Below, one piece after another: positions 24,912-40,151 of a stretch of DNA of 40,151 nucleotides. The stretch is from contig JAUYDX010000047.1 of NCBI GenBank assembly GCA_030691625.1, positions 1-40,151 of the forward strand, written 5' to 3'. This stretch comes from Candidatus Omnitrophota bacterium (GTDB taxonomy: Bacteria; Omnitrophota; Gorgyraeia; Gorgyraeales; Gorgyraeaceae). A model generated the notes under the pieces. The model was given only the letters and a program-made list of their open reading frames with translations. It was not told where the DNA came from and did not search any database. Position 1 is the stretch's first letter. Every line of letters begins with the position of its first letter. The translations under genes and the position numbers were made by a program.

Positions 24912-26734
24912 AAAAAGAAAAAACCAAAAACAGCGTTATAGAAAAAAGAATCCCGCATTATATTATAATAATATTATTATTTCTAACAGGGCTCGTGGCC
25001 TATAAAGGGGCGTTTATCAAAGGCATATTCCTGTTTGATGATCAGGCCCTGATAGTAGACAATCCGTTCATAAAGGATTTTTCGCATATAAAAGACGTAT
25101 TTACCACGCACCTTTTTAAAGGAAGCGGGGTCTACAGCAATTTCTACAGGCCCATGCAGGCGTTTTCGGCAATGATAGAATATCATTTCTGGGGGCTAAA
25201 GCCGTTTGGATATCATCTTGTGAATGTTGTCATACATATGCTTACCTCAATAGCAGTATATTTCTTCGGGTATATTTTATCCAAAAGGCAGATTGTAGGC
25301 ATAACCGCGGGTTTATTATTCAGCGTCCACACGGTTTTATCAGGGCCTGTTCATTATATTTCAGCAAGGGCTGATTTGCTCATGGCCTTATTTTCTGTAA
25401 TAGCCATAAATTTTTATATGCTTTACAGGGAAACAAAAACGCGCGGGGTATTATTCTATGGTGTTTCTTTTTTAAGTTTTTTAGCCGCTATCTTAAGCAA
25501 GGAAACCGCGGTAATGGTACCATTTTTAGCCTTATTTTATTTGTACTGTTTTTCCGACAGAAGGGCTAATCTGGAAAACAGGAAGCCAAATTTATTGTGG
25601 CCTTTTTTTATTGTTATAGCCCTTTACGGATGGCTCAGATTTACCGCATTGGATTTCTCAGAAGGAAAACTCATAGAAACAACCACAGGCGTGCTCCCTA
25701 TGCACATCAGGCTTCTGACTACAAGTAAGGTCCTTATGCTATATTTACGATTACTGGTTTTGCCTGTGGGTTTGCATATGGAATGGGATATAGCGCCTGC
25801 GGTTTCGTTTTTTCAGGATGAGGTTTTTCTGTCCATAGTGGGATTATTGATAATAGCCGGGTTTATTTATTTTCTATTCAGGAATTCCAGGCTCAAATTT
25901 TTTGCCATAGGATGGTTTTTTATAACGTTAATACCATACCTCAATATATTTCCTATTAATTATTTCATGGGAGAAGGCTGGCTATACGTGCCTTGCATAG
26001 GGTTTTTCATATTAATAGGACTGTATCTTTCGGAATTAGGAAGCAGGTCTAAGTTCCTGTCCTGGGCAGTTATTTTTATATTGCTATCTTTTACGCTATT
26101 TTACGGCGCCCTTACTTGCAGGCGGGCATATGTCTGGGCAGATCCCGCGAGATTATACAAAGAGGTTTTGAAATATTCCCCTAATAATACGAAGGCCAGA
26201 ATTAACCTGGGCATGATCCTGGCGAAATCAGGGGACAGGGAAGAGGCGATTAAAAGGTACAATGAGGTGGCTAAGATTACACCGAACGATTCAGGGGCGC
26301 ATGCCAATCTCGGATCTTTATATGCCGAAAAGAAGATGAATGACAAGGCCATGGAGGAATTTAAAAAGGCTGTTGAGCTGAATCCAAAGGATTATGTGGC
26401 CCACAATAATATAGGTATTTTATACAAGATGAAAGGCGATATTAAAAAGGCAATGGAAGAATACACAAAGGCGCTGGAACTTAATCCGAGTTATCCTCTG
26501 ACATATAATAATATAGGCAATATATATCTGGACTCAAGACAATATGAAGCAGCCATAAGGTTTTATAACAAGGCTATAAGTATAGATCCGAATAAGGCGG
26601 CTTTTTACTCCAATTTAGGCAAGGCGTATAAAGCCAAAAGGATGCCTGAAAAGGCCAGAGAGGCGTTTGGAAAGGCGTTACAGCTGGAACCGGGACATAA
26701 GGAAGCTGTCAGCGAACTTAAAACTATCAGATGA
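24908..26734 (+). CDS. TMTC-like multi-TM (GT-C-like) protein with C-terminal TPR repeats
   Basis: Multi-TM N-terminus with LIVDNPFIKDF, YRPMQAFSAMIEYHFWG.KPFGYHLVNVVIH, HYISARADLLMALF; C-terminal TPRs (AHNNIGILYKMKGDIKKAMEEYTKALELNPSYPLTYNNIGNIY). Confidence 0.82.
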   Translation: MKKEKTKNSVIEKRIPHYIIIILLFLTGLVAYKGAFIKGIFLFDDQALIVDNPFIKDFSHIKDVFTTHLFKGSGVYSNFYRPMQAFSAMIEYHFWGLKPFGYHLVNVVIHMLTSIAVYFFGYILSKRQIVGITAGLLFSVHTVLSGPVHYISARADLLMALFSVIAINFYMLYRETKTRGVLFYGVSFLSFLAAILSKETAVMVPFLALFYLYCFSDRRANLENRKPNLLWPFFIVIALYGWLRFTALDFSEGKLIETTTGVLPMHIRLLTTSKVLMLYLRLLVLPVGLHMEWDIAPAVSFFQDEVFLSIVGLLIIAGFIYFLFRNSRLKFFAIGWFFITLIPYLNIFPINYFMGEGWLYVPCIGFFILIGLYLSELGSRSKFLSWAVIFILLSFTLFYGALTCRRAYVWADPARLYKEVLKYSPNNTKARINLGMILAKSGDREEAIKRYNEVAKITPNDSGAHANLGSLYAEKKMNDKAMEEFKKAVELNPKDYVAHNNIGILYKMKGDIKKAMEEYTKALELNPSYPLTYNNIGNIYLDSRQYEAAIRFYNKAISIDPNKAAFYSNLGKAYKAKRMPEKAREAFGKALQLEPGHKEAVSELKTIR

Positions 26735-27662
26735 TTTTTCTGCGTTCTTTTACGTAGTTACTGCCAGGAAGGCTTTTCGCGTACTCTTTTAATTCCGCTC
26801 CTATCTCTCCTACCTCTCCCACGTGGTTTATCTTTCTCTTTTCATTGGTGACCACGCCTATGGATATTGATAATAACGGAATTTTCCTGGTCTTTTTTTT
26901 CCTGTCCTGGCCTATGATGTATCCTTTTTCCAGGTCTTCCCTGTTGTACAGCCCCGGGACCATGGAGTTGAAGTCAGCTATGATTTTTTTGCACAGATCG
27001 TCCGTTTTATCAGGGATAGTCACTACCACGAAATCGTCCCCTCCTATATGCCCTATGAAATCCTGGGGCGTGCCTTTTTCCTGCACGGAGTTTATCAATA
27101 TCCTGGCGGTATTTTTTATTACCTCATCGCCTTTTTCAAAACCGTATTTATCATTGAAGGCCTTAAATTTATCAAGGTCGGCGTAGCACACGGCGAAAGG
27201 CGTGTTTTTATCTATGCGGTTCCGTATCTCGTTTATTATAGAGACGTTTCCAGGGAGCCTTGTCAATGGGTTCGCGTCCAGATCCCTGGCGGATCTTCTC
27301 AAAACCATTTTTACCCTTGCCACCAGTTCCTGCGGTTCAAAGGGTTTGACCACATAATCGTCAGCGCCAGCGTTTATACCGTGTATCTTGTCTGTGATTT
27401 CGCCTTTGCCGGTGAGCATTATAATAGGCATGTGTTGTATGAGTATATCCTGTTTTAATGTTTTGCACACCTCGTCCCCGCACATCCGGGGCATCTTAAA
27501 ATCCGTGATAAGGAGGTCCGGGGATGATTTTTTTACCATCTCCAGGGCTTCCTGGCCGTCGTGCGCCTCTATCACCTGGTAGCCTTCCGCCTCAAGCGTT
27601 ATCCTTAAGACGTCTAATATATCCAGGTCGTCGTCTACGATGAGTATCTTTTCTTTTAACAT
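26727..27662 (-). CDS. Response regulator with GGDEF-family domain (GGDDF motif)
   Basis: ILIVDDDLDILDVLRITL...DLLITDFKMPRMCGDEV...YVVKPFEPQELVARV; DLDKFKAFNDKYGFEKGDEVI...FIGHIGGDDFVVV. Confidence 0.88.
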   Translation of the reverse strand: MLKEKILIVDDDLDILDVLRITLEAEGYQVIEAHDGQEALEMVKKSSPDLLITDFKMPRMCGDEVCKTLKQDILIQHMPIIMLTGKGEITDKIHGINAGADDYVVKPFEPQELVARVKMVLRRSARDLDANPLTRLPGNVSIINEIRNRIDKNTPFAVCYADLDKFKAFNDKYGFEKGDEVIKNTARILINSVQEKGTPQDFIGHIGGDDFVVVTIPDKTDDLCKKIIADFNSMVPGLYNREDLEKGYIIGQDRKKKTRKIPLLSISIGVVTNEKRKINHVGEVGEIGAELKEYAKSLPGSNYVKERRKII

Positions 27663-27677
27663 TTGCGCTTACTCCTT

Positions 27678-27725
27678 GGTTCTCGACTGGGCTCACATGA
27701 ATAGCCACAATGTCCGCTCGAACGA
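27678..27725 (-). repeat. Hairpin repeat element, copy A
   Basis: Minus strand: TTCGAGCGGACATTGTGGCTATTCATGTGAGCCCAGTCGAGAACC; shares conserved arms with copy B at 30599-30645. Confidence 0.65.
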
Positions 27726-27727
27726 TA

Positions 27728-29197
27728 TTAATATTTTGGTATCGTGAATGTAAACCTGGTTCCTTTGCCCAGCCTGGTGTCGAACCAGATCTTGCCTTTA
27801 TGGGCCTCCACTATTTTTTTAACAAGCGACAGGCCCAGCCCCGAACCCTTTATATTCTGGTCCATCGCATTGTCTGCCCTGAAGAATTCCTGAAAGACTT
27901 TCGGGATGTCCTGGGAAGGTATGCCTATGCCCGTGTCCTCTACGCTGAACTGTACATATCCGTCCCCGTCTTCTATGCCAACGGTTACCTTTCCGTTATC
28001 CGGGGTAAATTTAACCGCATTGCTCAGCAAGTTCACTAACACCCTTTCCATCTGGCCCTGGTCAGCCCTTATCCTGTCCGATTTTATACCCGTGTTTATT
28101 TTTAAAGAGATATTTTTTTCTTTAACCTGAGGCGCTATTATATCCACAACCGAATCCAGTATTTCTTTTATAGAAATATCTTTCATATCCATCTGGACTT
28201 TTCCTGACTCTATCCTGGCTATATCAAGAAGGTTGTTTATCAGGTGCACCAGGCTGTTAGAGTGCTTATCTATTTTTTCAAGCCTCTCCTTTTGCGCCGG
28301 CTGTACTTCTCCCAGCTTGCCTGTCATGAGTATTGAGGCATAACCCTTTATGGATGTCAGAGGGGTCCTTAGCTCGTGAGATACGGCTGATATGAAATCG
28401 GATTTCATTTTATTCAATGTTTTAAGTTCCTGATTCAGTTTTTCAAGCTCTCTTGTTCTTTCCGAGACCCTCCTCTCGAGTTCCTTGTGGGAACCGAAGA
28501 GCTCTGTGTAGAGTTTCGCGTTTTCAATGGCTGTCCCTATCTCGCCGGTGAGTATGGATAAAAGTTCCGAATCTTTTTCGCTGATTTTTTCATACGCGGA
28601 ATCATTTCCCATGATTATAAATCCGACCGGCTCCTCTCTTACTATAACAGGGGCCGTTACAAAAGATTCCATTTTCAGCATATCCAGAAGATTCCATCTC
28701 CGGTCCACGCTTTCCGCGAACCTGTCAACCAGTACCGGTTTTTCCTTTTTAAACAGAAAACCCGCGAATTTAGTCTTGTTGAGTTCCGGTTCTATTAGTT
28801 TTATCTCAGCTTCAGAATAGCCTATAGAACTTTTTATAACCATGGTTTCCGATGACCCATCCTTTAGCATGAGCAGTAATTTAGAGTATCCTAATTTTGC
28901 TAAAAAAGGCTGGTTTATCATGCTGAAAAGGGCTTCTGTATTAAAGGTGGAACTTATCTTTTTATTGAGTTCATGAAGCGCGTATAAGCTTGTTATTTTC
29001 CTGCCCAGCTCTTCTTGTATCTTATTAAGGGCCAGATCGGTTTTTATGATAATTTTCGCCTGGCTGTCCAGCTGGTCAATTATTCCTCCCAGTTTTTTAT
29101 TTGATTTTTCGAGTTCTATGCGCCTCCTGGTTTCTATATGATACAGCATAAACAAAATGCAGCTTATTAAGACAGAAATTATCATGTATGTACCCAT
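27728..29197 (-). CDS. Sensor histidine kinase with GAF-like domain
   Basis: N-terminal TM; GAF-like region; H-box AVSHELRTPLTSIKGYAS; LVNLLSNAVKFTPDNG; GSGLGLSLVKKIVEAHKG. Confidence 0.9.
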   Translation of the reverse strand: MGTYMIISVLISCILFMLYHIETRRRIELEKSNKKLGGIIDQLDSQAKIIIKTDLALNKIQEELGRKITSLYALHELNKKISSTFNTEALFSMINQPFLAKLGYSKLLLMLKDGSSETMVIKSSIGYSEAEIKLIEPELNKTKFAGFLFKKEKPVLVDRFAESVDRRWNLLDMLKMESFVTAPVIVREEPVGFIIMGNDSAYEKISEKDSELLSILTGEIGTAIENAKLYTELFGSHKELERRVSERTRELEKLNQELKTLNKMKSDFISAVSHELRTPLTSIKGYASILMTGKLGEVQPAQKERLEKIDKHSNSLVHLINNLLDIARIESGKVQMDMKDISIKEILDSVVDIIAPQVKEKNISLKINTGIKSDRIRADQGQMERVLVNLLSNAVKFTPDNGKVTVGIEDGDGYVQFSVEDTGIGIPSQDIPKVFQEFFRADNAMDQNIKGSGLGLSLVKKIVEAHKGKIWFDTRLGKGTRFTFTIPKY

Positions 29198-29199
29198 AG

Positions 29200-30390
29200 C
29201 TACTCCGAAAACAGCGTTATGGAAATACTGTGGTTATTAAAATTACACTGGCCGTGCGATTCCTTTGCGTCAGATGGCGCGTATTCCCCGAAGGTATAAC
29301 ATCCCAGTATGGGTATATTTCTGCCCAGGACTTCTTTTACCGCGTCCATTTCCTTGTAAGCGTCATCTTTTAAGACTAAAAGCCTGGCCATGTCGCTGAA
29401 TATCGCAGCAAATTTTATTTTCGCATAACTGATATCTTTTACCGCTGATGTTGCCGCCTTTTTGGCGGATTCCAGTACAGCATCCTTGTCCCCTATCATC
29501 AGGCTTATATCATCCTCTTCTTTTATGTCCCCGTTTAACAGGAGCCCGCCGGCATCATCTATAGCGATAGGCACCCTGGTAATATAATCGTCAAAATTAG
29601 CTGATCTTGTCCCAATCGGATAGGTTATGCCCAGCGCGCAGATACCATAGTTTTTAAGCTCTTCAATGGATTTCTCAAAGTATTCTTCGTACAACCTGAC
29701 AGCTATTTTTTTATCTATTTCTTTTATGGTATTGGATCTGGCTTTTGTGATTTTATGGGTTTTTCCTAAAGGCTGCCAGCCATTGGATGTCCCAATGCCT
29801 AATCTGATATCGCCTGATATGAGCGCCCCGGACACAGAATCTGATAGCGCCTCGCTATCCATATACTGATATGTTTTCCGGTCGCATGTCTTATTGCACG
29901 CGCCGCCCCCTATTATGGGAAAACCTGTACCGAGTACTTCCTGGGAACCTCTTAAGATATTAGCGCTTTGTCCGGATGCGCCGTCAGAAAACATCATATA
30001 GGCTTGTTTGAGTTTGGATTTATTAGTTAAGCCAAGGGCCTTTATGACAGTCTTATTCCCGGCTAAACCAGGGCTTTTGGAAACCTTATCCCCTATCCCG
30101 CAGGAAAACAGCATAGAATCAGAGCTTATTATAAATACAGCCACGGAATCCTTATGGGAACCGTAGCTGGAAATAGCGCCTATGCTGGAGCATCCTATAA
30201 GCTGTGTATCTCTTGTTATCGATCTTATGCCCCTTATTGTTTCCTGTTGGTCAAATATAGGAGATATAAAAGTAATTACTATGCCGGGGTCATTTTTCCC
30301 GATCTGATAATAGGCATTCAAGGCAGCTTCTTTACCCGCTGTGAAAGAATCCAGTTTAGCGCTTATGCCTGTGCCTAATAATGTAGCCAT
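29200..30390 (-). CDS. FIST N/C domain sensory protein
   Basis: SFTAGKEAALNAY...DTQLIGCSSIGAISSYGSHKDSVAVFIISSD...GFPIIGGGACNKT...AAIFSDMARLLVL...IPILGCYTFGEYAPS. Confidence 0.82.
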   Translation of the reverse strand: MATLLGTGISAKLDSFTAGKEAALNAYYQIGKNDPGIVITFISPIFDQQETIRGIRSITRDTQLIGCSSIGAISSYGSHKDSVAVFIISSDSMLFSCGIGDKVSKSPGLAGNKTVIKALGLTNKSKLKQAYMMFSDGASGQSANILRGSQEVLGTGFPIIGGGACNKTCDRKTYQYMDSEALSDSVSGALISGDIRLGIGTSNGWQPLGKTHKITKARSNTIKEIDKKIAVRLYEEYFEKSIEELKNYGICALGITYPIGTRSANFDDYITRVPIAIDDAGGLLLNGDIKEEDDISLMIGDKDAVLESAKKAATSAVKDISYAKIKFAAIFSDMARLLVLKDDAYKEMDAVKEVLGRNIPILGCYTFGEYAPSDAKESHGQCNFNNHSISITLFSE

Positions 30391-31493: not shown

Positions 31494-34400
31494 ATGTTAG
31501 ACTGGCAGAATAAAAAATGGATTAAAGTAATAGCCTGTGTATTGGTTATTACTTTTCTTGCTTACGACATAGCCTGGGCCACAGACTTCTCCCCTATTGC
31601 TCTGCATTCAGCTATTCCCGGTACCCCCGGTATTTTCCCCAAGATAACAAGCTTTATATCCGAGAAGATCTTTAAGAAAACAGACAAGACAAAAAAACCC
31701 GAAGAAACAGAGATTTCTTTCAGAAGCCAGCTCGTCCCTTCGAAAAAATACGAAGAGAGGTCTGGCTTTTTGCGTTTAGAGGCTGTCAGGGATATGATAA
31801 AGCGCCAGATGGATGAGATGCAGCGCCGTCAGCAGATAGAGCAGGAACGCGTTAATAGATATATCATAGATTCTGATATCAATAAAGGCCTATATATAGA
31901 TGCTGTGGAAAAGGCGCAAGAGGCCCAGTCTATCAATCAGCAGATAATGAAGGCAAGGGGCGAAACCATGGGTGCTGCAGCAGCAACCAGCGAGTTTAAC
32001 TACGTGATGAATAAAGACGGCTCAAAGGTGAACTACATAGACGGCCTTCCATCCTCAATAGAAAACGAACAGATGGCGGATTCCTATGGCTACGTGAGCA
32101 TAAAGAACACAAAGAACATGAAATACAATAGCTCTCGCCTTTTAACCTCCTATGATGCCGAGGTAATAGACCCCAAAGGCAATATCACTAAGATCAACTG
32201 GTATGACGCGGTCTATAGCCCTGATTCAGTCTGGTGGGCTGACAGCACTACAAAGGCCGGTAAATACATGCTCAGTTACAAAGAGATCATCACTGATCCG
32301 CAAGGCACAGTTATCCAGCGGGAATGGTCAACCGCAAAAGAGAATTATGATTCGCTGAAAAGGCCCATGACCTACAGGGAGACGATAAAAGACGCCATAG
32401 GGAATACCATTTCTACCTCAGACTGGTCAAATGGCATATATGACGGAGACAAACTCAAAAGCTATCACCAGGTTACTAAAGACGCTTACGGAAACGTGAG
32501 TACCCTTGACTGGGAGGCTGAATATAATAATTTTGGCTATATCAAGAAGTCATCTTCAAAAGAAAAACTTGAAAAAAGAGACCATTCCACTTCTTTTACC
32601 GAAAGCGCCACCACGTATGATTATGACTCTAACGGGACATTAAATACAGCATCCGGGACCAGCGCGATTACCGGAGAGGATGAGTACGGCAATAGAAATA
32701 CAGGCACTACCACGCAGCACTATGAAACAATAAACGGACAGGTAAAACTTACCAAGAATTTGTCCATAGTGGATTACGAAAATATAGACGGTTCCACCGC
32801 TCACAGCGAAAGCGTTGTGGAATACACATATGATTCCAGAAATCTTCTGATAGGGGCAGAGGGCATTACAGGGACAACCGGCAAAAATATATTTGGGAAT
32901 GGGTATAAGACAATCACGACAGATACTTATGAGATAATCGCAAGCCAGGCGAGGCGGGTCCATTCAGTGTCTATAAGCGATGAAGAAGACCTGTTTGGTT
33001 CAAATACACATTCAGAAACAATCAATGATTACAAATATGACGCTAAAACAGGGGATCTCATATCAGCTACAGGTTACACAGATACCCTGTCTGAAGACCT
33101 GTTTGGCAACCAGTCGGTTACGCGCACAGACCACATCTATCAGATTATTAATGGCGAAGCAAGGATGATCGGGTCTGAGACAAGAGGCGACCTGGTAAAT
33201 CCAGGAAGCGAAATGGGCCAGATTATATCAGGCATACAGGATTTTTTAGAATCTTACGCCGCACTCGCCACCCCAGAGGCAAAACAGGCAAAATTACAAG
33301 AGGCTGGATTAGCAGGCCTTGGATTAAAATTAGCTGACCTTACAACAGCAGGTGCCCTTAAAATCGCAGTGTGGCTGTTCAGGGCATCTACAAACCTCAT
33401 AAACTGCGCAATAAACGCAGTCTATAATATACTTTCAAAATTAGGCATTACAGTTACAAAGAAGGAACTGATCCAGAAGGCTGTGCTGATAGATGTGCTC
33501 AGCGGCGTAATAACACCTGAAAACGCCAGCGGCGACCTGATGCTTTCCATGTATTCTATGGTCAAGGCAGCCCAGGCAAAAGGTATTACACTTTACGGCG
33601 CGAATGTGACAATAGAGCAATTGAAATCCATAGGCAAGCCTGTAATAGCGCATGTAGGCGGCGATCACTATATTGTGATAAAGTCCGTAGGCGATTCCCA
33701 GATCACTTATATCCAGGATAATGAGGAAAAGATCATGGGCCTGGCAGAATTCTTGAGCGTATGGGAAGGCAATATCGCAACCCAGGATGTGCCAAGCGGT
33801 GTCACAGCCATGAATGAAGAGGCGCTTAAAGCAATAACAGGCGCGGAGGCGCAATATCGTTTGCCAAGGCCAAAGAAACCTACAGATCCTGCAACAGGCG
33901 TTAATCCTCCTCAATGGAGCGCGCCTGAGGATTCTGTAAAGCCAAAAGACGCGAAGTCTTCCCAGTGGGAAGATGTGTCTGGATGGGAATGGCAGTGTGA
34001 ATGGAATGATTCTGAAGATCAATGGGAATGGAAATCTGTCTATGTAGAAAAGGCAAAGATCTCCTGGCAAAAAGACGGCAAAAATTATTACCAGATATTC
34101 GGCAAGAATCGCGAAAATAAATGGGAGGCCATAACTAATACTGAAGGGAAACCAACAGGGCCAGCGTATAATTCTGATTATAATAACAGCAGGCCGCCTG
34201 ATGGCAGGGCGTTTCGGCCTCCGCCTCTTGATGAAAAACGCGAAATGAAGGTGAAAATAAAAGATGGCATTTATGTGACATTCAGGTACAGCAAGTCTGT
34301 GCCTGTAATTGATATAGAAGGCAAAGTAGCCTATTTTACTTATTACCTTGTGTTTACAGACCCTGTTACGAACAATGACCAGGAGGTAGAATGGGTTGAT

Positions 34401-37400
34401 TCATCAAGCTGGGAATGGGAAAAGATTGATGGAGAATGGATGTCTGTGTGGAAAGAAAGGGCAATGATTTCATGGGCACAGAGCAACGGACCTGATAAGG
34501 AAGAAAACAGGTATTCCAAGACGTTTGAAGAGAACTCAGACGCCAGCGGCTGGGTTATATCAGAAGGCACCAATGGTTTTGGCGGATTTTTAAAAGAGAT
34601 TATTGAGGTAAAAGGCGATCCTAACGGCAGGCATGTGGCGCAGTGGAGCGATGATGGCCAGAGCGGGTTTGAGCTGTTCAGAAAGGGCGAGCCAAATACA
34701 GGGTCTTATTACTTATATTACCTGACTTGGAATTATAAAGACGGAAAACGCGAAGAGAGCCTGACTATAATAGAAGGTTTTAATATTTATATGAAGTCCC
34801 AGAATGACAAGGGCACGACTGTTACCGAGGCTGAGCGCAATCAGAATGCCAGCGGGGTTAACTGGGCGAATATTTGGAATAATAATACAGAGACAAAGTC
34901 TGTGATGCTGGCAAAAATAAAGCGGGAAGGGAATTATTATCATATTGACGGAGAGTCTGTTATGTACGAAGGCCTCTTAACAGTGATTGTCTCTTTGAAG
35001 CGCGAAATAGGCAAGGATGAAGCAGGGGTCCTTGACAGAAAGGCGTATTTTATAAGGAACGACTCTTTTGTTGACTGGCCTGAACTTGTAAAGCAGTTAA
35101 AAGACAATATCTCCGCTAAATTTGTTTATGATGAATTAGGCATGGGCCTGTTCGCAAAGGTGGTTTTATCAAGGAAAACCGGGGGCGATGGGGATTTTAA
35201 ATTCACTATAGATCTTGATGAACTGTGGGAATACCCTGAAAAAGAAGGGGATGAATTCATCTTTAAATTTATCCAGAACGGGACGTCAAAGACATATACA
35301 GCCGGATCAATGACCCTGGACTATACTACAGGATATATTGTAAGGGATGAAGACGGCAATATTGTAGAAGATCATACAAGCATAGATCGCGAAATCGCGG
35401 ATATCAAAGCAGTAGTTACAATAACGTGGGTGGATGAAGAAGGAAAACCTGTAAAAGCCGGGGAATCGCCCAGAGGTTACAAGATAAGAGTGACAATACA
35501 AAGCCCTTCAATAGAGCAAGGCTTTGATCCTTCTGAACCTGATGAGAATGGAAATGTGACAGAGACTATAAACCACAAGATAGTTTATAACGAGACCTCG
35601 TTTGAATTCACCATTGATATAGATGTTGAAAATATGTCCAGCGGAACTGACCTATCCATGGATGCCGGGAAACTTTATCAGGAATTCCTAAAGGATAAAA
35701 CAGATGAGTATAACAAGCAGAATAACGAGTCCCTCACAGTGGAACAGTGGCTGGATAAGAATCCATTGTATAAAAATCCAGCGCTCAGGGCGGTATTCGA
35801 CCAAAAGATAAAATTAATCAAAGGCAAAAATGCAGGGGAATGGATACCTGAAATTACCAGGACTTACAAAGACGGAGCAACAACGATAGGCACAATGAAG
35901 CTAACTACTATGAAGCTTCACACATTATCAAAGGAATTGAACGATTTAAAATCAACAGCTACTTACAAGGAAAACCTGGCATTTATGCCGGAATCGCTTT
36001 TAATAAAGGATATGAAGATTGCTACAAATGGAGTGCTTGATTATACGTATGAAATCAGCAGTGACGGCGTTATCAGCGGGGCTGAACTTCTCCCGAATAA
36101 TACCACACCCGCCATTGATACTAATCCTCCGGAGCCGTTAGTAAGAACTACTGAACCCAGCGCAGCGGGCGCCCTGGGCGTTTTCAGCCCTCTAGGCCTG
36201 TCATCTTTATTGAGGGGCCAGACTGTTATAAGCTTTGACTCTGGCAATAACGTGGAAAGCATTGTGATGCCTGACAGATCAGGGAACATAGTAAAATATA
36301 CGCTCAAATCTGTTGTGTCAGAAAATAAATTCAGGATGAAATCAGGGAGTTTAAATATCCCTGACATTATCTTAACGCTTGATAAGGAAGGTAATATAGC
36401 TATTGAGGCTGTGGATTCAGGAAATCCTCCGATACTTATACAGCTTGCAGACGGCAAGGCAATAGGCCAGGCAAGAGGCGCTGAAACAGAGGGGGTCTAT
36501 GAAATTTCCCAGGATATATCCGGCAATAAGATAATGCTGATAGATTTTCAGGCTAAGGAACTAAAGGAAGAAAAAAGCATAAAGACAGCCACGAGCATAA
36601 TCGAGGCCATTAAAAAATTCCTGGAAGAAAAGATGCAGGCAATAGGCGCTGTCCCTGATAAGATAAGAAATGCCATAAATACTCTGGGAGGCGTAACTAA
36701 ATTTTTAAAATGGCTTACACAGATGGGCACGTATCTTATAAACTGCGCTGTCATTGCGGCAAAGGCCGTGCTTGCAAAGGCAGGGGTGAATCTGGGAGTC
36801 CAGGAGATAGCGGTTGATATGATCTTACTGGACCTGATGGCAGGGAACATTAACCCCAGGACCACAGCCATACTTTACAGCACATTTTCCGCGATAGAAA
36901 AGATAATAAAGAATAACGGCGTTAACATGAAGACCATGTATTTTACAAGGAGCCAGCTTGAGAATATCACCACGCCTGTTATCGCGCATGTAGGCGGAGA
37001 TCACGCAGTGGTGGTCACAGGGGTCTACAATGGAGAGGTCTATATCATAGAGTCAGACGGGAAATTATACAACGTGCCTATCAATAAATTCCTGGAGGAA
37101 TGGAGCGGTTTTATGATCGCGGAAAGGGCTCCGCCTATGACAGGGGCACCGGATACCGCGATCAGTATCCCCGAGCAGATTCCTTCCCAGGGTTTTATTG
37201 CCACGCCGCAGGAAAAACTCATACCGCAGGCAATAGAAGACAGATTAAAAAAAGCTTCTGAAATACCTTCATCAGATCAAAAAATAATCCTTGTAACCAA
37301 GTTAAAAGAACCTGAAGCAGACTTATTTGACCACAGCCGCGTACATGAATCCAGCCCTGATGTCATAACCACTATAGGGATTGACGGCTCTATAACCTAT

Positions 37401-40151
37401 ACAAAGAGCTGGGTAAAATATGAATATGACGCAGACGGCAGGCTTATCAGCGCCAGCGGAGAAGACTATGTATGGGGAGAGGATATATTCGGGAATTCTT
37501 ACAGGACCACCTCTACCTCCACGTATCTGATAATAGGAGGCCAGGCAAAGAAGGTAAGATCCGAATCTATTACCGAGTCAGAGACCCTGGATGGGTCAAA
37601 CAGCGCTACCACAGGGACTGTTAATTACGAATACACAGACGGCACTGAAGACCCGTCTACATTACCTTCGGCATACACAGATGAAGATGGGAATGTGCTC
37701 AAGGGGCTTTTAAAACACGCAGACGGGAGCAGCGTTACTACAGGTTCGGATGTATTTGGGAATGGCTATACCACAAGAAGTACTGATACTTATGCGATTA
37801 TAAATGGAGAAGCAAGGGTTCAAAAAAGCGTATCTAATACAGAAAGCCAGACCATATCAGGCGCGTTGAATAAGACCACGTCCACTATTGAATATCTCTA
37901 CGCGGATGGCACAGAAGACCCTGATTCTCTTCCCGCGGAATGCATTAATGAGGACGGCAAAATAATTGTCGGCTCATTAAAAGGCGCCAATGGCCTTGTG
38001 CAGTCTTCCTCAGAAGATGTATTTGGCAATGCCTACACCACCACCACAATAGATACCTACGGGATACTGGCAGGCAGGGCAAAGGTCCTGCAGTCTAATT
38101 CAATAACAAAATCCGTGTCCCTTGATGGCCTTATAAATACCAATACAGGCCGCATTGAGTATGAATACAGCGTAACTGAAGATCCTTATGTGAACCCTGA
38201 GACAGGGAGATCCGGCATAGGGGTTTTGGTTGGCGCAAAGGGCGGAAATATTGTAGAAGGCGAAGACGTATTTGGAAACAAATATTTCACCACCACCACA
38301 AATACCTATACCATGAGCATGAGCGGCCAGGCAAAGGTACTGGAAGCTGTTTCCCTGACCGAATCAGTTAATATAGACGGCTCTATAAGAAGGGATGAGA
38401 ATTTTATAACCTATCACTATACAGACGGCACAGAAGACCCGGCAACGCTTGGACCTGAATATTTTGACAAAGACGGCAATATAATAATAGGCATTTTAAA
38501 ATCAGCTGAAGGCCATGGCCAGACAACAGGCGAGGACGCATTTGGCAATAGATACACTACAGTAAGCGCCAATAGATATATCTACAGGAAAGGCGAGGTG
38601 TTTGTTGAGGGGGTGGACAGCGTTACAACCGGCAGAGACCTTTTTGGCAATTCTTATACAACCACAACCTGGATGGATTATTCTTTCGGCAGTCTTAAGA
38701 AGGGTGAAAAAGGCGCTCTCAGAGACGCTGATTTTGTGATATCCGGGATTGGCGCAAAAGGAGGCGGATCTGTAACTGTAGGCAGGGATCTGTTCGGAGC
38801 AGAATACAATACCGCAGTTACCAACACATATATATTTAATAAGGGACAGTTGTATGTTAACAAAGTGGACAGTCTGACAAAAGGGTCTGACGCATTTGGT
38901 TCCAGCTACACATCAATAGGTTTTGTTGAATATCTATACAGCAGCCTTAAAAAAGGAGAAAAAGGCGCGCTAAGGGATGCTGATTTTATATTGATAGACG
39001 CCAGAGGCGGAAATGAAAATACATCCATAGATGTATTTGGGTCGAATTCCATTACCACTACCACAAATACCTATATCTATAATAAAGGCCAGGTTTATGT
39101 GCTTGTCTCAGACAGCGTGACTACTGGTTCAGATTTGTTTGGGTATAGCTATGCTACCACAGGGTCTATTAATTACAGCTATGGCCAGTTATTAAAAGGC
39201 GAAAACGGCGCTCTCAGGAACGCGGAGTTTGCGATAAAAGAAGCCGCAGGCGGGTCTAGTAACGTAACCCATAATGTATTCGGCGAATTAACCACCAGCG
39301 TAACGACAAATATATACAAAATAGTAAAGGGCCAGTCATTAATAGATACCTCAGTGGTTGTTACAAGCGGCACAAATCTATTTGGAGAGTCATATGTTAC
39401 CACAACCATCACGAAATATACGTATCATGAAACCCCTGAAGGGCCTAACAAGGCGTATGGGGAGCTAAAAGACGCGATAACAGAGTCTAATACCGAAGGC
39501 AGTGATGTATGGGGCTCAAGTTATGCCACTATATCCACATCCTATTATACGAATATAAACAACAGGGCGCTTGTATCAAAGGTTATGGCTCAGACCACAG
39601 GCGAGAATCTGTTTGGAGAAAGCTACACAACAGAATCTATTACTGAATATTTCTATTATGATGGAAAAACAGGGCCTGATAAGGTATATGGCGAGATCAG
39701 GGATGCTAGAAGCGTCAACATAACAACAGGCCTTGATGTTTGGGGTTCAAGTTACCAGACCACATCCACAACCAAATTTATAATAATAAAGAATAAACCC
39801 CTGCAACAGGAAGTTACAGCTGTGACAGCAGGCTCTAACCTGTTTGGAGAAAGCTACACTACATATTCCACTACCACCTACACCTATAAAGATACTGAAG
39901 GCGGAGACGCCAAGGAAACTAGCCTTGGCCAATTGGCCAGTACCGCGAGTAATAGCGTTACTAACGGCACCGACGTCTGGGGCGCCACATACACGACTAC
40001 ATCCGAGACCAAGTTCACCCAGATAAATAACAGGCCTTTTGCTGAAAAAGTCACAGCCGTTACAACCGGCACAAACCTCTTCGGCGAAAGCTACACCACA
40101 TACTCAACCACCACCTACGCCTATAATGACAAAGGAGAGATACTCTCTACC
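31494..40151 (+). CDS. Giant secreted repeat protein with two C39-like domains, 3' truncated by window edge (at least 2,886 aa)
   Basis: ATG 31494 (MLDWQNKKWIKVIACVLVITFLAYDIAWATDFSP..., signal peptide). I translated this frame by eye to 40151 and found no stop. Not in the supplied ORF track. Confidence 0.93.
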   Translation, partial: MLDWQNKKWIKVIACVLVITFLAYDIAWATDFSPIALHSAIPGTPGIFPKITSFISEKIFKKTDKTKKPEETEISFRSQLVPSKKYEERSGFLRLEAVRDMIKRQMDEMQRRQQIEQERVNRYIIDSDINKGLYIDAVEKAQEAQSINQQIMKARGETMGAAAATSEFNYVMNKDGSKVNYIDGLPSSIENEQMADSYGYVSIKNTKNMKYNSSRLLTSYDAEVIDPKGNITKINWYDAVYSPDSVWWADSTTKAGKYMLSYKEIITDPQGTVIQREWSTAKENYDSLKRPMTYRETIKDAIGNTISTSDWSNGIYDGDKLKSYHQVTKDAYGNVSTLDWEAEYNNFGYIKKSSSKEKLEKRDHSTSFTESATTYDYDSNGTLNTASGTSAITGEDEYGNRNTGTTTQHYETINGQVKLTKNLSIVDYENIDGSTAHSESVVEYTYDSRNLLIGAEGITGTTGKNIFGNGYKTITTDTYEIIASQARRVHSVSISDEEDLFGSNTHSETINDYKYDAKTGDLISATGYTDTLSEDLFGNQSVTRTDHIYQIINGEARMIGSETRGDLVNPGSEMGQIISGIQDFLESYAALATPEAKQAKLQEAGLAGLGLKLADLTTAGALKIAVWLFRASTNLINCAINAVYNILSKLGITVTKKELIQKAVLIDVLSGVITPENASGDLMLSMYSMVKAAQAKGITLYGANVTIEQLKSIGKPVIAHVGGDHYIVIKSVGDSQITYIQDNEEKIMGLAEFLSVWEGNIATQDVPSGVTAMNEEALKAITGAEAQYRLPRPKKPTDPATGVNPPQWSAPEDSVKPKDAKSSQWEDVSGWEWQCEWNDSEDQWEWKSVYVEKAKISWQKDGKNYYQIFGKNRENKWEAITNTEGKPTGPAYNSDYNNSRPPDGRAFRPPPLDEKREMKVKIKDGIYVTFRYSKSVPVIDIEGKVAYFTYYLVFTDPVTNNDQEVEWVDSSSWEWEKIDGEWMSVWKERAMISWAQSNGPDKEENRYSKTFEENSDASGWVISEGTNGFGGFLKEIIEVKGDPNGRHVAQWSDDGQSGFELFRKGEPNTGSYYLYYLTWNYKDGKREESLTIIEGFNIYMKSQNDKGTTVTEAERNQNASGVNWANIWNNNTETKSVMLAKIKREGNYYHIDGESVMYEGLLTVIVSLKREIGKDEAGVLDRKAYFIRNDSFVDWPELVKQLKDNISAKFVYDELGMGLFAKVVLSRKTGGDGDFKFTIDLDELWEYPEKEGDEFIFKFIQNGTSKTYTAGSMTLDYTTGYIVRDEDGNIVEDHTSIDREIADIKAVVTITWVDEEGKPVKAGESPRGYKIRVTIQSPSIEQGFDPSEPDENGNVTETINHKIVYNETSFEFTIDIDVENMSSGTDLSMDAGKLYQEFLKDKTDEYNKQNNESLTVEQWLDKNPLYKNPALRAVFDQKIKLIKGKNAGEWIPEITRTYKDGATTIGTMKLTTMKLHTLSKELNDLKSTATYKENLAFMPESLLIKDMKIATNGVLDYTYEISSDGVISGAELLPNNTTPAIDTNPPEPLVRTTEPSAAGALGVFSPLGLSSLLRGQTVISFDSGNNVESIVMPDRSGNIVKYTLKSVVSENKFRMKSGSLNIPDIILTLDKEGNIAIEAVDSGNPPILIQLADGKAIGQARGAETEGVYEISQDISGNKIMLIDFQAKELKEEKSIKTATSIIEAIKKFLEEKMQAIGAVPDKIRNAINTLGGVTKFLKWLTQMGTYLINCAVIAAKAVLAKAGVNLGVQEIAVDMILLDLMAGNINPRTTAILYSTFSAIEKIIKNNGVNMKTMYFTRSQLENITTPVIAHVGGDHAVVVTGVYNGEVYIIESDGKLYNVPINKFLEEWSGFMIAERAPPMTGAPDTAISIPEQIPSQGFIATPQEKLIPQAIEDRLKKASEIPSSDQKIILVTKLKEPEADLFDHSRVHESSPDVITTIGIDGSITYTKSWVKYEYDADGRLISASGEDYVWGEDIFGNSYRTTSTSTYLIIGGQAKKVRSESITESETLDGSNSATTGTVNYEYTDGTEDPSTLPSAYTDEDGNVLKGLLKHADGSSVTTGSDVFGNGYTTRSTDTYAIINGEARVQKSVSNTESQTISGALNKTTSTIEYLYADGTEDPDSLPAECINEDGKIIVGSLKGANGLVQSSSEDVFGNAYTTTTIDTYGILAGRAKVLQSNSITKSVSLDGLINTNTGRIEYEYSVTEDPYVNPETGRSGIGVLVGAKGGNIVEGEDVFGNKYFTTTTNTYTMSMSGQAKVLEAVSLTESVNIDGSIRRDENFITYHYTDGTEDPATLGPEYFDKDGNIIIGILKSAEGHGQTTGEDAFGNRYTTVSANRYIYRKGEVFVEGVDSVTTGRDLFGNSYTTTTWMDYSFGSLKKGEKGALRDADFVISGIGAKGGGSVTVGRDLFGAEYNTAVTNTYIFNKGQLYVNKVDSLTKGSDAFGSSYTSIGFVEYLYSSLKKGEKGALRDADFILIDARGGNENTSIDVFGSNSITTTTNTYIYNKGQVYVLVSDSVTTGSDLFGYSYATTGSINYSYGQLLKGENGALRNAEFAIKEAAGGSSNVTHNVFGELTTSVTTNIYKIVKGQSLIDTSVVVTSGTNLFGESYVTTTITKYTYHETPEGPNKAYGELKDAITESNTEGSDVWGSSYATISTSYYTNINNRALVSKVMAQTTGENLFGESYTTESITEYFYYDGKTGPDKVYGEIRDARSVNITTGLDVWGSSYQTTSTTKFIIIKNKPLQQEVTAVTAGSNLFGESYTTYSTTTYTYKDTEGGDAKETSLGQLASTASNSVTNGTDVWGATYTTTSETKFTQINNRPFAEKVTAVTTGTNLFGESYTTYSTTTYAYNDKGEILST
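33390..33800 (+). other. C39-like peptidase domain 1 within the giant ORF
   Basis: TNLINCAINAVYNILSKLGI (Cys codon 33405-33407) ... KPVIAHVGGDHYIVI (His codon 33666-33668) ... ITYIQDNEEKIMGLAEFLSVWEG. Confidence 0.7.
36723..37125 (+). other. C39-like peptidase domain 2 within the giant ORF
   Basis: TQMGTYLINCAVIAAKAVLAKAGV (Cys codon 36744-36746) ... TPVIAHVGGDHAVVV (His codon 37002-37004) ... YIIESDGKLYNVPINKFLEEWSG. Confidence 0.7.
37470..40151 (+). repeat. Degenerate protein-level tandem repeats in the giant ORF (FG/WG-signature units)
   Basis: About 18 copies of [GS]xD[VL][FW]Gx.Y.TT signatures, e.g. GEDIFGNSYRTTS, GSDVFGNGYTTRS, GRDLFGNSYTTTT, GTNLFGESYVTTT, GSDVWGSSYATIS, GTNLFGESYTTYS. 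Confidence 0.88.

Follow-up and report, generated by a model that had tools for sequence, protein, structure and literature searches.

The window analysed here, 40,151 nucleotides long, comprises positions 1 to 40,151 of contig JAUYDX010000047.1 in the Candidatus Omnitrophota bacterium assembly GCA_030691625.1. On its forward strand it carries the gene of a giant secreted protein (31494..40151, +) with two C39-like domains, D1 and D2, and we consider it rather probable that D1 is an extracytoplasmic C39-like peptidase which cuts its own chain after GA784, at the end of a double-glycine-leader-like motif just past the domain. The unit of signal, C39-like domain and G(A/S/G) is common to many giants across the phylum. 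An earlier sequence-only reading of this DNA had called the protein giant, and rightly so: the open reading frame (ORF) that begins at 31494 has no stop up to the point where window and contig both end, and it encodes at least 2886 residues. The gene is incomplete in the window because the contig ends inside it, and its 3′ end is lost. Self-processing, which the same reading had offered as one possible function of the two domains, gains support for D1, where a site of the double-glycine (GG) type lies in cis and is conserved across the phylum, and finds none for D2, which has no such site.

Two C39-like domains with a papain-like predicted fold

D1 comprises residues 605-770 (33306..33803, +) and D2 residues 1717-1885 (36642..37148, +). 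The two Cys/His pairs noticed earlier, Cys638 (33405-33407) with His725 (33666-33668) and Cys1751 (36744-36746) with His1837 (37002-37004), are exact in residue and coordinate, as are their spacings of 87 and 86 residues. The third active-site position is Gln741 (33714-33716) in D1 and Glu1853 (37050-37052) in D2. The segments that had been described as shared, LINCA at residues 635 and 1748 and VIAHVGGDH at 717 and 1829, lie in stretches that are related beyond chance (E = 6e-18, 33% identity). The assignment as C39-like also holds, since both domains match PF03412 above the cut-off of 22 bits (36.1 and 43.1 bits). C39 is the sole Pfam domain found in the giant ORF, which shows no fusion to the transmembrane or nucleotide-binding domains of an ATP-binding cassette (ABC) transporter, and the nearest solved relative by sequence profile is the peptidase domain of PCAT1 (E = 2.8e-9). 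No C39 match other than D1 and D2 turned up in the assembled part of this genome, which therefore holds no C39 ABC transporter for them to serve. A PCAT-like role was rejected, since this genome lacks any fusion of C39 with an ABC transporter and, among 118 sampled genomes, just two C39 ORFs are of transporter-like length (707 and 775 codons), both of them contig-end fragments of long ORFs.

AlphaFold models built from the window and related sequences support a C39/papain-like predicted fold for both domains, with pLDDT 85.9 and pTM 0.81 for D1 and pLDDT 81.3 and pTM 0.71 for D2. In Foldseek comparisons both models group with the C39 peptidase domains of PCAT1 and ComA, with LahT in complex with leader and with the C39-like domain of HlyB, and neither proved to have the non-papain fold that would have spoken against the original proposal. 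The top PDB matches of D1 are the PCAT1 C39 domain, the HlyB C39-like domain, LahT with leader and ComA, at TM-scores of 0.66-0.79 against single-domain targets; those of D2 are ComA and LahT with leader. Papain-like folds require the Cys at the start of a helix and the His directly before a strand. In the D1 model Cys638 is the first residue of helix 34-45, and His725 stands immediately before strand 122-128 (model numbering).

A double-glycine-leader-like motif downstream of D1

The candidate site is the motif MNEEALKAITGA (residues 773-784, 33810..33845, +), with a predicted cut between A784 and E785. It represents a general pattern, L(S/T)DxE(A/M/L)xx(I/V)xG(A/S/G), found about 30 residues past the last conserved Phe in both D1-type and giant-type domains, outside the Pfam C39 match and past its end. 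A strict version, a regular expression based on the known layout of double-glycine leaders, follows 19 of 66 domains, where shuffled versions of these stretches would lead one to expect 0.16 and the background rate in the remainder of the proteins about 0.24; the expression was written after the sequences had been seen, and the count therefore describes the motif and is no blind prediction put to the test. Among the 110 domains that carry the Gly, hydrophobic residues are most frequent at −12 (97%), −4 (93%) and −7 (65%), no other position from −13 to −3 exceeding 45%, and position −1 is A, S or G in 92. The C39 peptidase LahT recognizes hydrophobic residues at −4, −7 and −12 (PMC10885120). 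These are exactly the three most hydrophobic positions of the motif, an agreement that gives it support independent of the pattern itself.

Within the window's family, GA occurs at the same distance in every complete D1-type domain except one, L013, which reads IRAA. When peptides of 30 residues carrying the motif were compared with known leader families, two of ten matched the lantibiotic family TIGR03898 (E 0.006 and 0.03, below the cut-off), both matches ending at GA, the last position of the profile; further peptides weakly matched other GG-leader families, all below the curated cut-offs. In the D1 model residues 775-780 are helical, and confidence drops below 50 from about residue 784. 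Conservation falls at the predicted cut, the same point as model confidence: identity to relatives is 46-66% in D1 and 27-44% over the next 516 residues, where a third to half of the positions are unaligned. The whole variable region from the predicted cut to D2 (residues 785-1716, 33846..36641, +) shows 19-44% identity and large gaps.

No GG-type motif lies downstream of D2-type domains, though they are conserved about as well as D1. The only loose match after D2 of the window, MIAERAPPMTGA at residue 1874, is not common to other D2 domains and was rejected as a site of its own.

Active-site columns across the family

Counts of the active-site columns draw on 117 loci with 130 distinct domains among them. 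No residue other than Cys (100) or Ser (28) occupies the nucleophile column, and the His is kept in 129 of 130 domains. At His+16 there is Asp in 76 domains and Glu in 43 (119/130), and the His-acid spacing is 16 in 117 of 130. C39 peptidases carry an oxyanion Gln at −6 from the Cys. This residue is absent from nearly all domains here, so that they are classed as C39-like and not as strict C39 members. The sequence-only reading had set D2, with a Gln eight residues before its Cys, against D1, which seemed to lack one; this contrast does not stand, as relatives vary between Q, K, R and N at the D2 position, and the Gln was rejected as an oxyanion residue.

An acidic residue, Asp or Glu, occupies the third position in all 28 Ser-type domains, among them those of L077, L084, L138 and L150. 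One or two changes on the tree suffice to explain the Ser, and these domains therefore represent approximately one old clade. That they are scattered dead copies was rejected, since they group together in this way, with the His and the acid retained and mostly also the motif. The clade may represent a C39-type peptidase with a serine nucleophile, or else a binding module.

Distribution, giant proteins and the predicted export signal

The relatives compared are likewise recorded as Candidatus Omnitrophota. Within the window's family the domain was found in 11 of 19 genomes, often twice per long ORF and in the order D1 then D2. This is probably a lower bound, because G003 and G014, two of the genomes that gave no match, have the same giant N-terminus beside a gene for a FIST-domain sensor, and in them the retrieved sequence or the contig stops short of where the domain would lie. 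D1 and D2 fall into separate sets of 12 rows each in a quick tree (SH-aLRT 95 and 99), and the duplication therefore predates the radiation of the family. One ORF, L035 (G002), has three C39-like domains, D1 and two D2-like copies. The giant ORF of G016 breaks off within D2 (L033, 16324-16370) and resumes in another frame, through an assembly error or a real frameshift.

In the phylum sample a match was obtained in 153 of 292 Omnitrophota genomes (135 of the 223 good ones). The 140 listed ORFs, many of which end at contig ends, have a median length of 3237 codons; 43 have at least 5000, 27 at least 10,000, and the largest has 57,756. The one-contig genome G093 has a domain-bearing ORF of 39,687 codons, which by size alone is near the V. 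archaeovorus giant of 39,678 residues (PMC10066038). In 17 of 20 very long ORFs the domain starts at residue 105-208, and it lies deeper in L077, L084 and L087.

An element of the form W[IL][RK]xVA...WA precedes 60 of the 69 domains located at most 450 residues from the ORF start. Most of the 60 read W(I/L)(R/K)xVAxxxxxFxPEQ(V/A)(S/A)(W/Q)A, and several of the other nine are visible variants. The N-terminus of the window protein, MLDWQNKKWIKVIACVLVITFLAYDIAWA (residues 1-29, 31494..31580, +), resembles an export signal and is kin to this phylum-wide W[IL][RK]xVAxxxxxFxPEQxxWA element, its local version being KKWIKVIACVLVITFLAYDIAWA. We infer that the element is an export signal that is cleaved. 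The window protein has a signal-like start and the domain, but its ORF continues past the contig end and its D1 lies at residue 605, behind a conserved N-terminal region (residues 30-604, 31581..33305, +) that consists partly of repeats and in which residues 201-604 are 43-64% identical to relatives.

A similar pairing was seen in other Omnitrophota proteins. In L159 and L165, single examples read by eye, a Pfam C39 match is followed by a GG-type stretch (ALSGAEMEAQAGG and LLSDARMKAILGG, respectively) and then by RHS-like sequence. L156, L157 and L158 encode stand-alone exported C39 proteins; beside those of L156 and L157 are exported proteins in which GG-leader-like sequences (ILSDQELDAVFAGG and YISDDEAATIIGA) were recognized by eye, and each C39 protein may form a trans pair with its leader-bearing neighbour.

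Remaining features of the locus

Behind D2 the giant protein continues in a tail of divergent repeats (37371..40151, +) of the type xxxTTGxDxFGNxYTTTTxxTY..., with units of about 80-90 residues and no Pfam match. On the opposite strand, divergent from the giant gene, lies the gene for the FIST-domain sensor (29200..30390, −), followed by those for a sensor histidine kinase with GAF-like, HisKA and HATPase domains (27728..29197, −) and a response regulator with a GGDEF domain (26727..27662, −). The FIST gene adjoins the giant gene on one contig also in G013, G016, G006, G007, G002 and G018, and in G017 the two are on separate contigs. This arrangement suggests that the three genes (26727-30390, −) are co-regulated with the giant gene.

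Cutting, binding or other functions

In the mechanism that we propose, the N-terminus would be exported by Sec and D1 would fold outside the cytoplasm. The leader-like helix 773-784 of the same chain could then enter the D1 substrate groove, which C39 peptidases use for leaders, and D1 would cut its own chain after Gly783-Ala784. Such a cut would split the chain into a conserved N-terminal processing module, comprising the signal, the N-terminal region and D1, and a variable, repetitive rest, and might constitute a maturation or release step of a giant surface protein. D2, which keeps Cys, His and Glu and has no site of its own, may cut another site or a partner, or act as a binding module.

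A number of observations do not sit easily with a self-cutting D1. The PF03412 match spans only profile positions ~45-127 of 133, leaving the Cys half outside, and the third position of D1 is Gln741, a residue found there in just 3 of 130 domains. Gln at −6 occurs in only 3 of 128 domains and in neither D1 nor D2 of the window. The motif itself is imperfect in that position −7 is hydrophobic in only 65% of cases and the giants of one clade show a derived version, AF(V/I)WG(S/N/D), in its place. Moreover, the Ser-type clade retains the motif Gly in 25 of 28 domains, and the motif may therefore serve binding rather than cutting.

The main rival takes up the last of these points: both domains would be non-catalytic C39-like binding modules, as the HlyB domain is for RTX proteins, and D1 would hold on to its own leader-like helix without cutting it, serving as a structural clamp or as a chaperone for export. 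It agrees with the HlyB C39-like domain being among the best structural matches and with Gln741 in D1, and what sustains it is the clade with Ser together with the absent −6 Gln. A mere clamp would, however, not need the His kept in 129 of 130 domains, the Asp or Glu in 119 of 130 or the Cys in 100 of 128. It would mainly need positions −12, −7 and −4, whereas G-(A/S/G) at −2/−1 suits a cutter. To judge from these columns, in which His and acid are nearly invariant, and from the G-(A/S/G) where the chain would be cut, catalysis is favoured over a clamp, which we rate as possible and clearly the less likely of the two.

Cleavage in trans, by which D1 or D2 would cut other exported GG-leader proteins, or D2 the site of D1, appears unlikely. 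It would give a use to D2, with its Cys, His and Glu and no site, and it fits L045, where D1 has Ser and the site while D2 has Cys and no site, as well as the other Omnitrophota loci that pair stand-alone exported C39 proteins with exported proteins bearing GG-like leaders; yet the D1 site lies in cis at a near-fixed distance, and many genomes have just one such domain. A toxin-type papain-like effector aimed at prey or competitors is very improbable, for although Tox-PL-C39 domains have been described (PMC3482391) and structural matches include a papain-like toxin/immunity pair (9l5u) and CdiA-CT (8ssk), the domain is found close to the N-terminal end of the giants and not at the C-terminal position of toxins, shows deep conservation instead of polymorphism, and comes with a cut site of leader-like type.

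Beyond self-cleavage by D1 of the window, one may speculate that a self-cleaving extracytoplasmic C39/double-glycine cassette is the ancestral N-terminal module of Omnitrophota giants, each of which would carry its own peptidase and site and be freed from a Sec-exported leader, with an old sister clade using a Ser nucleophile. This wider proposal is tentative, and we would sooner doubt than adopt it at present.

Significance and comparison with known systems

C39 peptidases and double-glycine leaders are well known, and giant Omnitrophota ORFs have been described before. The combination of a peptidase and a leader-type site in one exported giant chain, kept throughout the phylum, was not found in the literature, in a search that did not cover the giant-gene preprint of West-Roberts et al. 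(2023); nor was any literature joining C39 with Omnitrophota found, though that preprint may mention the domain. The giants of this phylum are among the longest predicted proteins in nature, and the module of signal, peptidase and cut site offers both a feature that they share and a first biochemical step that can be tested. The proposed mechanism predicts the mature N-terminus to within one residue, which is checkable in existing proteomes, and the phylum-wide signal-like element before the C39-like domain could help to find giant genes. If the mechanism holds, double-glycine processing would no longer be confined to small precursor peptides and would reach exported proteins tens of thousands of residues long.

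Among known systems, the C39-like domain of HlyB, from type I secretion of RTX proteins, shares the fold and is represented by 3zua among the best matches. Unlike D1 and D2, it belongs to an ABC transporter and lacks a catalytic Cys. Very large exported proteins processed by cysteine peptidases are also known from the MARTX CPD and from LapG acting on LapA; these differ from D1 in fold family and site, and LapG acts in trans. The giant ORFs of V. archaeovorus (PMC10066038) belong to a class in which the domain described here is found close to the N-terminal end, the ORF of 39,687 codons included. Omnitrophota giant ORFs have been reported to have few annotated domains, poor conservation and poorly understood roles (PMC10066038), and the term "peptidase" was not found in the text of that paper.

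In the Fap amyloid system of Pseudomonas, the C39 peptidase FapD is exported to the periplasm by Sec, and mutation of its active-site Cys (C38A) abolishes amyloid secretion (PMC5557850); it is therefore a precedent for an exported C39 peptidase acting outside the cytoplasm. The same source mentions an inactive C39 subgroup (PMC5557850). FapD resembles the system proposed here in being a Sec-exported C39 peptidase tied to the secretion of a surface fibre protein, but it stands as a protein of its own and what it cuts is unclear, whereas here peptidase and site are on one polypeptide, and the two domains score 16.9 and 12.6 bits against the FapD profile NF058616, far below its cut-off of 330 bits.

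With PCAT1, ComA and LahT the Omnitrophota domains share the papain-like C39 fold and the Cys, His and Asp/Glu columns, and the motif found here shares the helical leader with hydrophobic −12, −7 and −4 and G-(G/A/S) at −2/−1. In contrast to these, the Omnitrophota domain has no ABC transporter fusion and sits inside an exported giant, lacks the −6 Gln and in D1 has Gln741, and the site lies downstream of the peptidase on the same chain.

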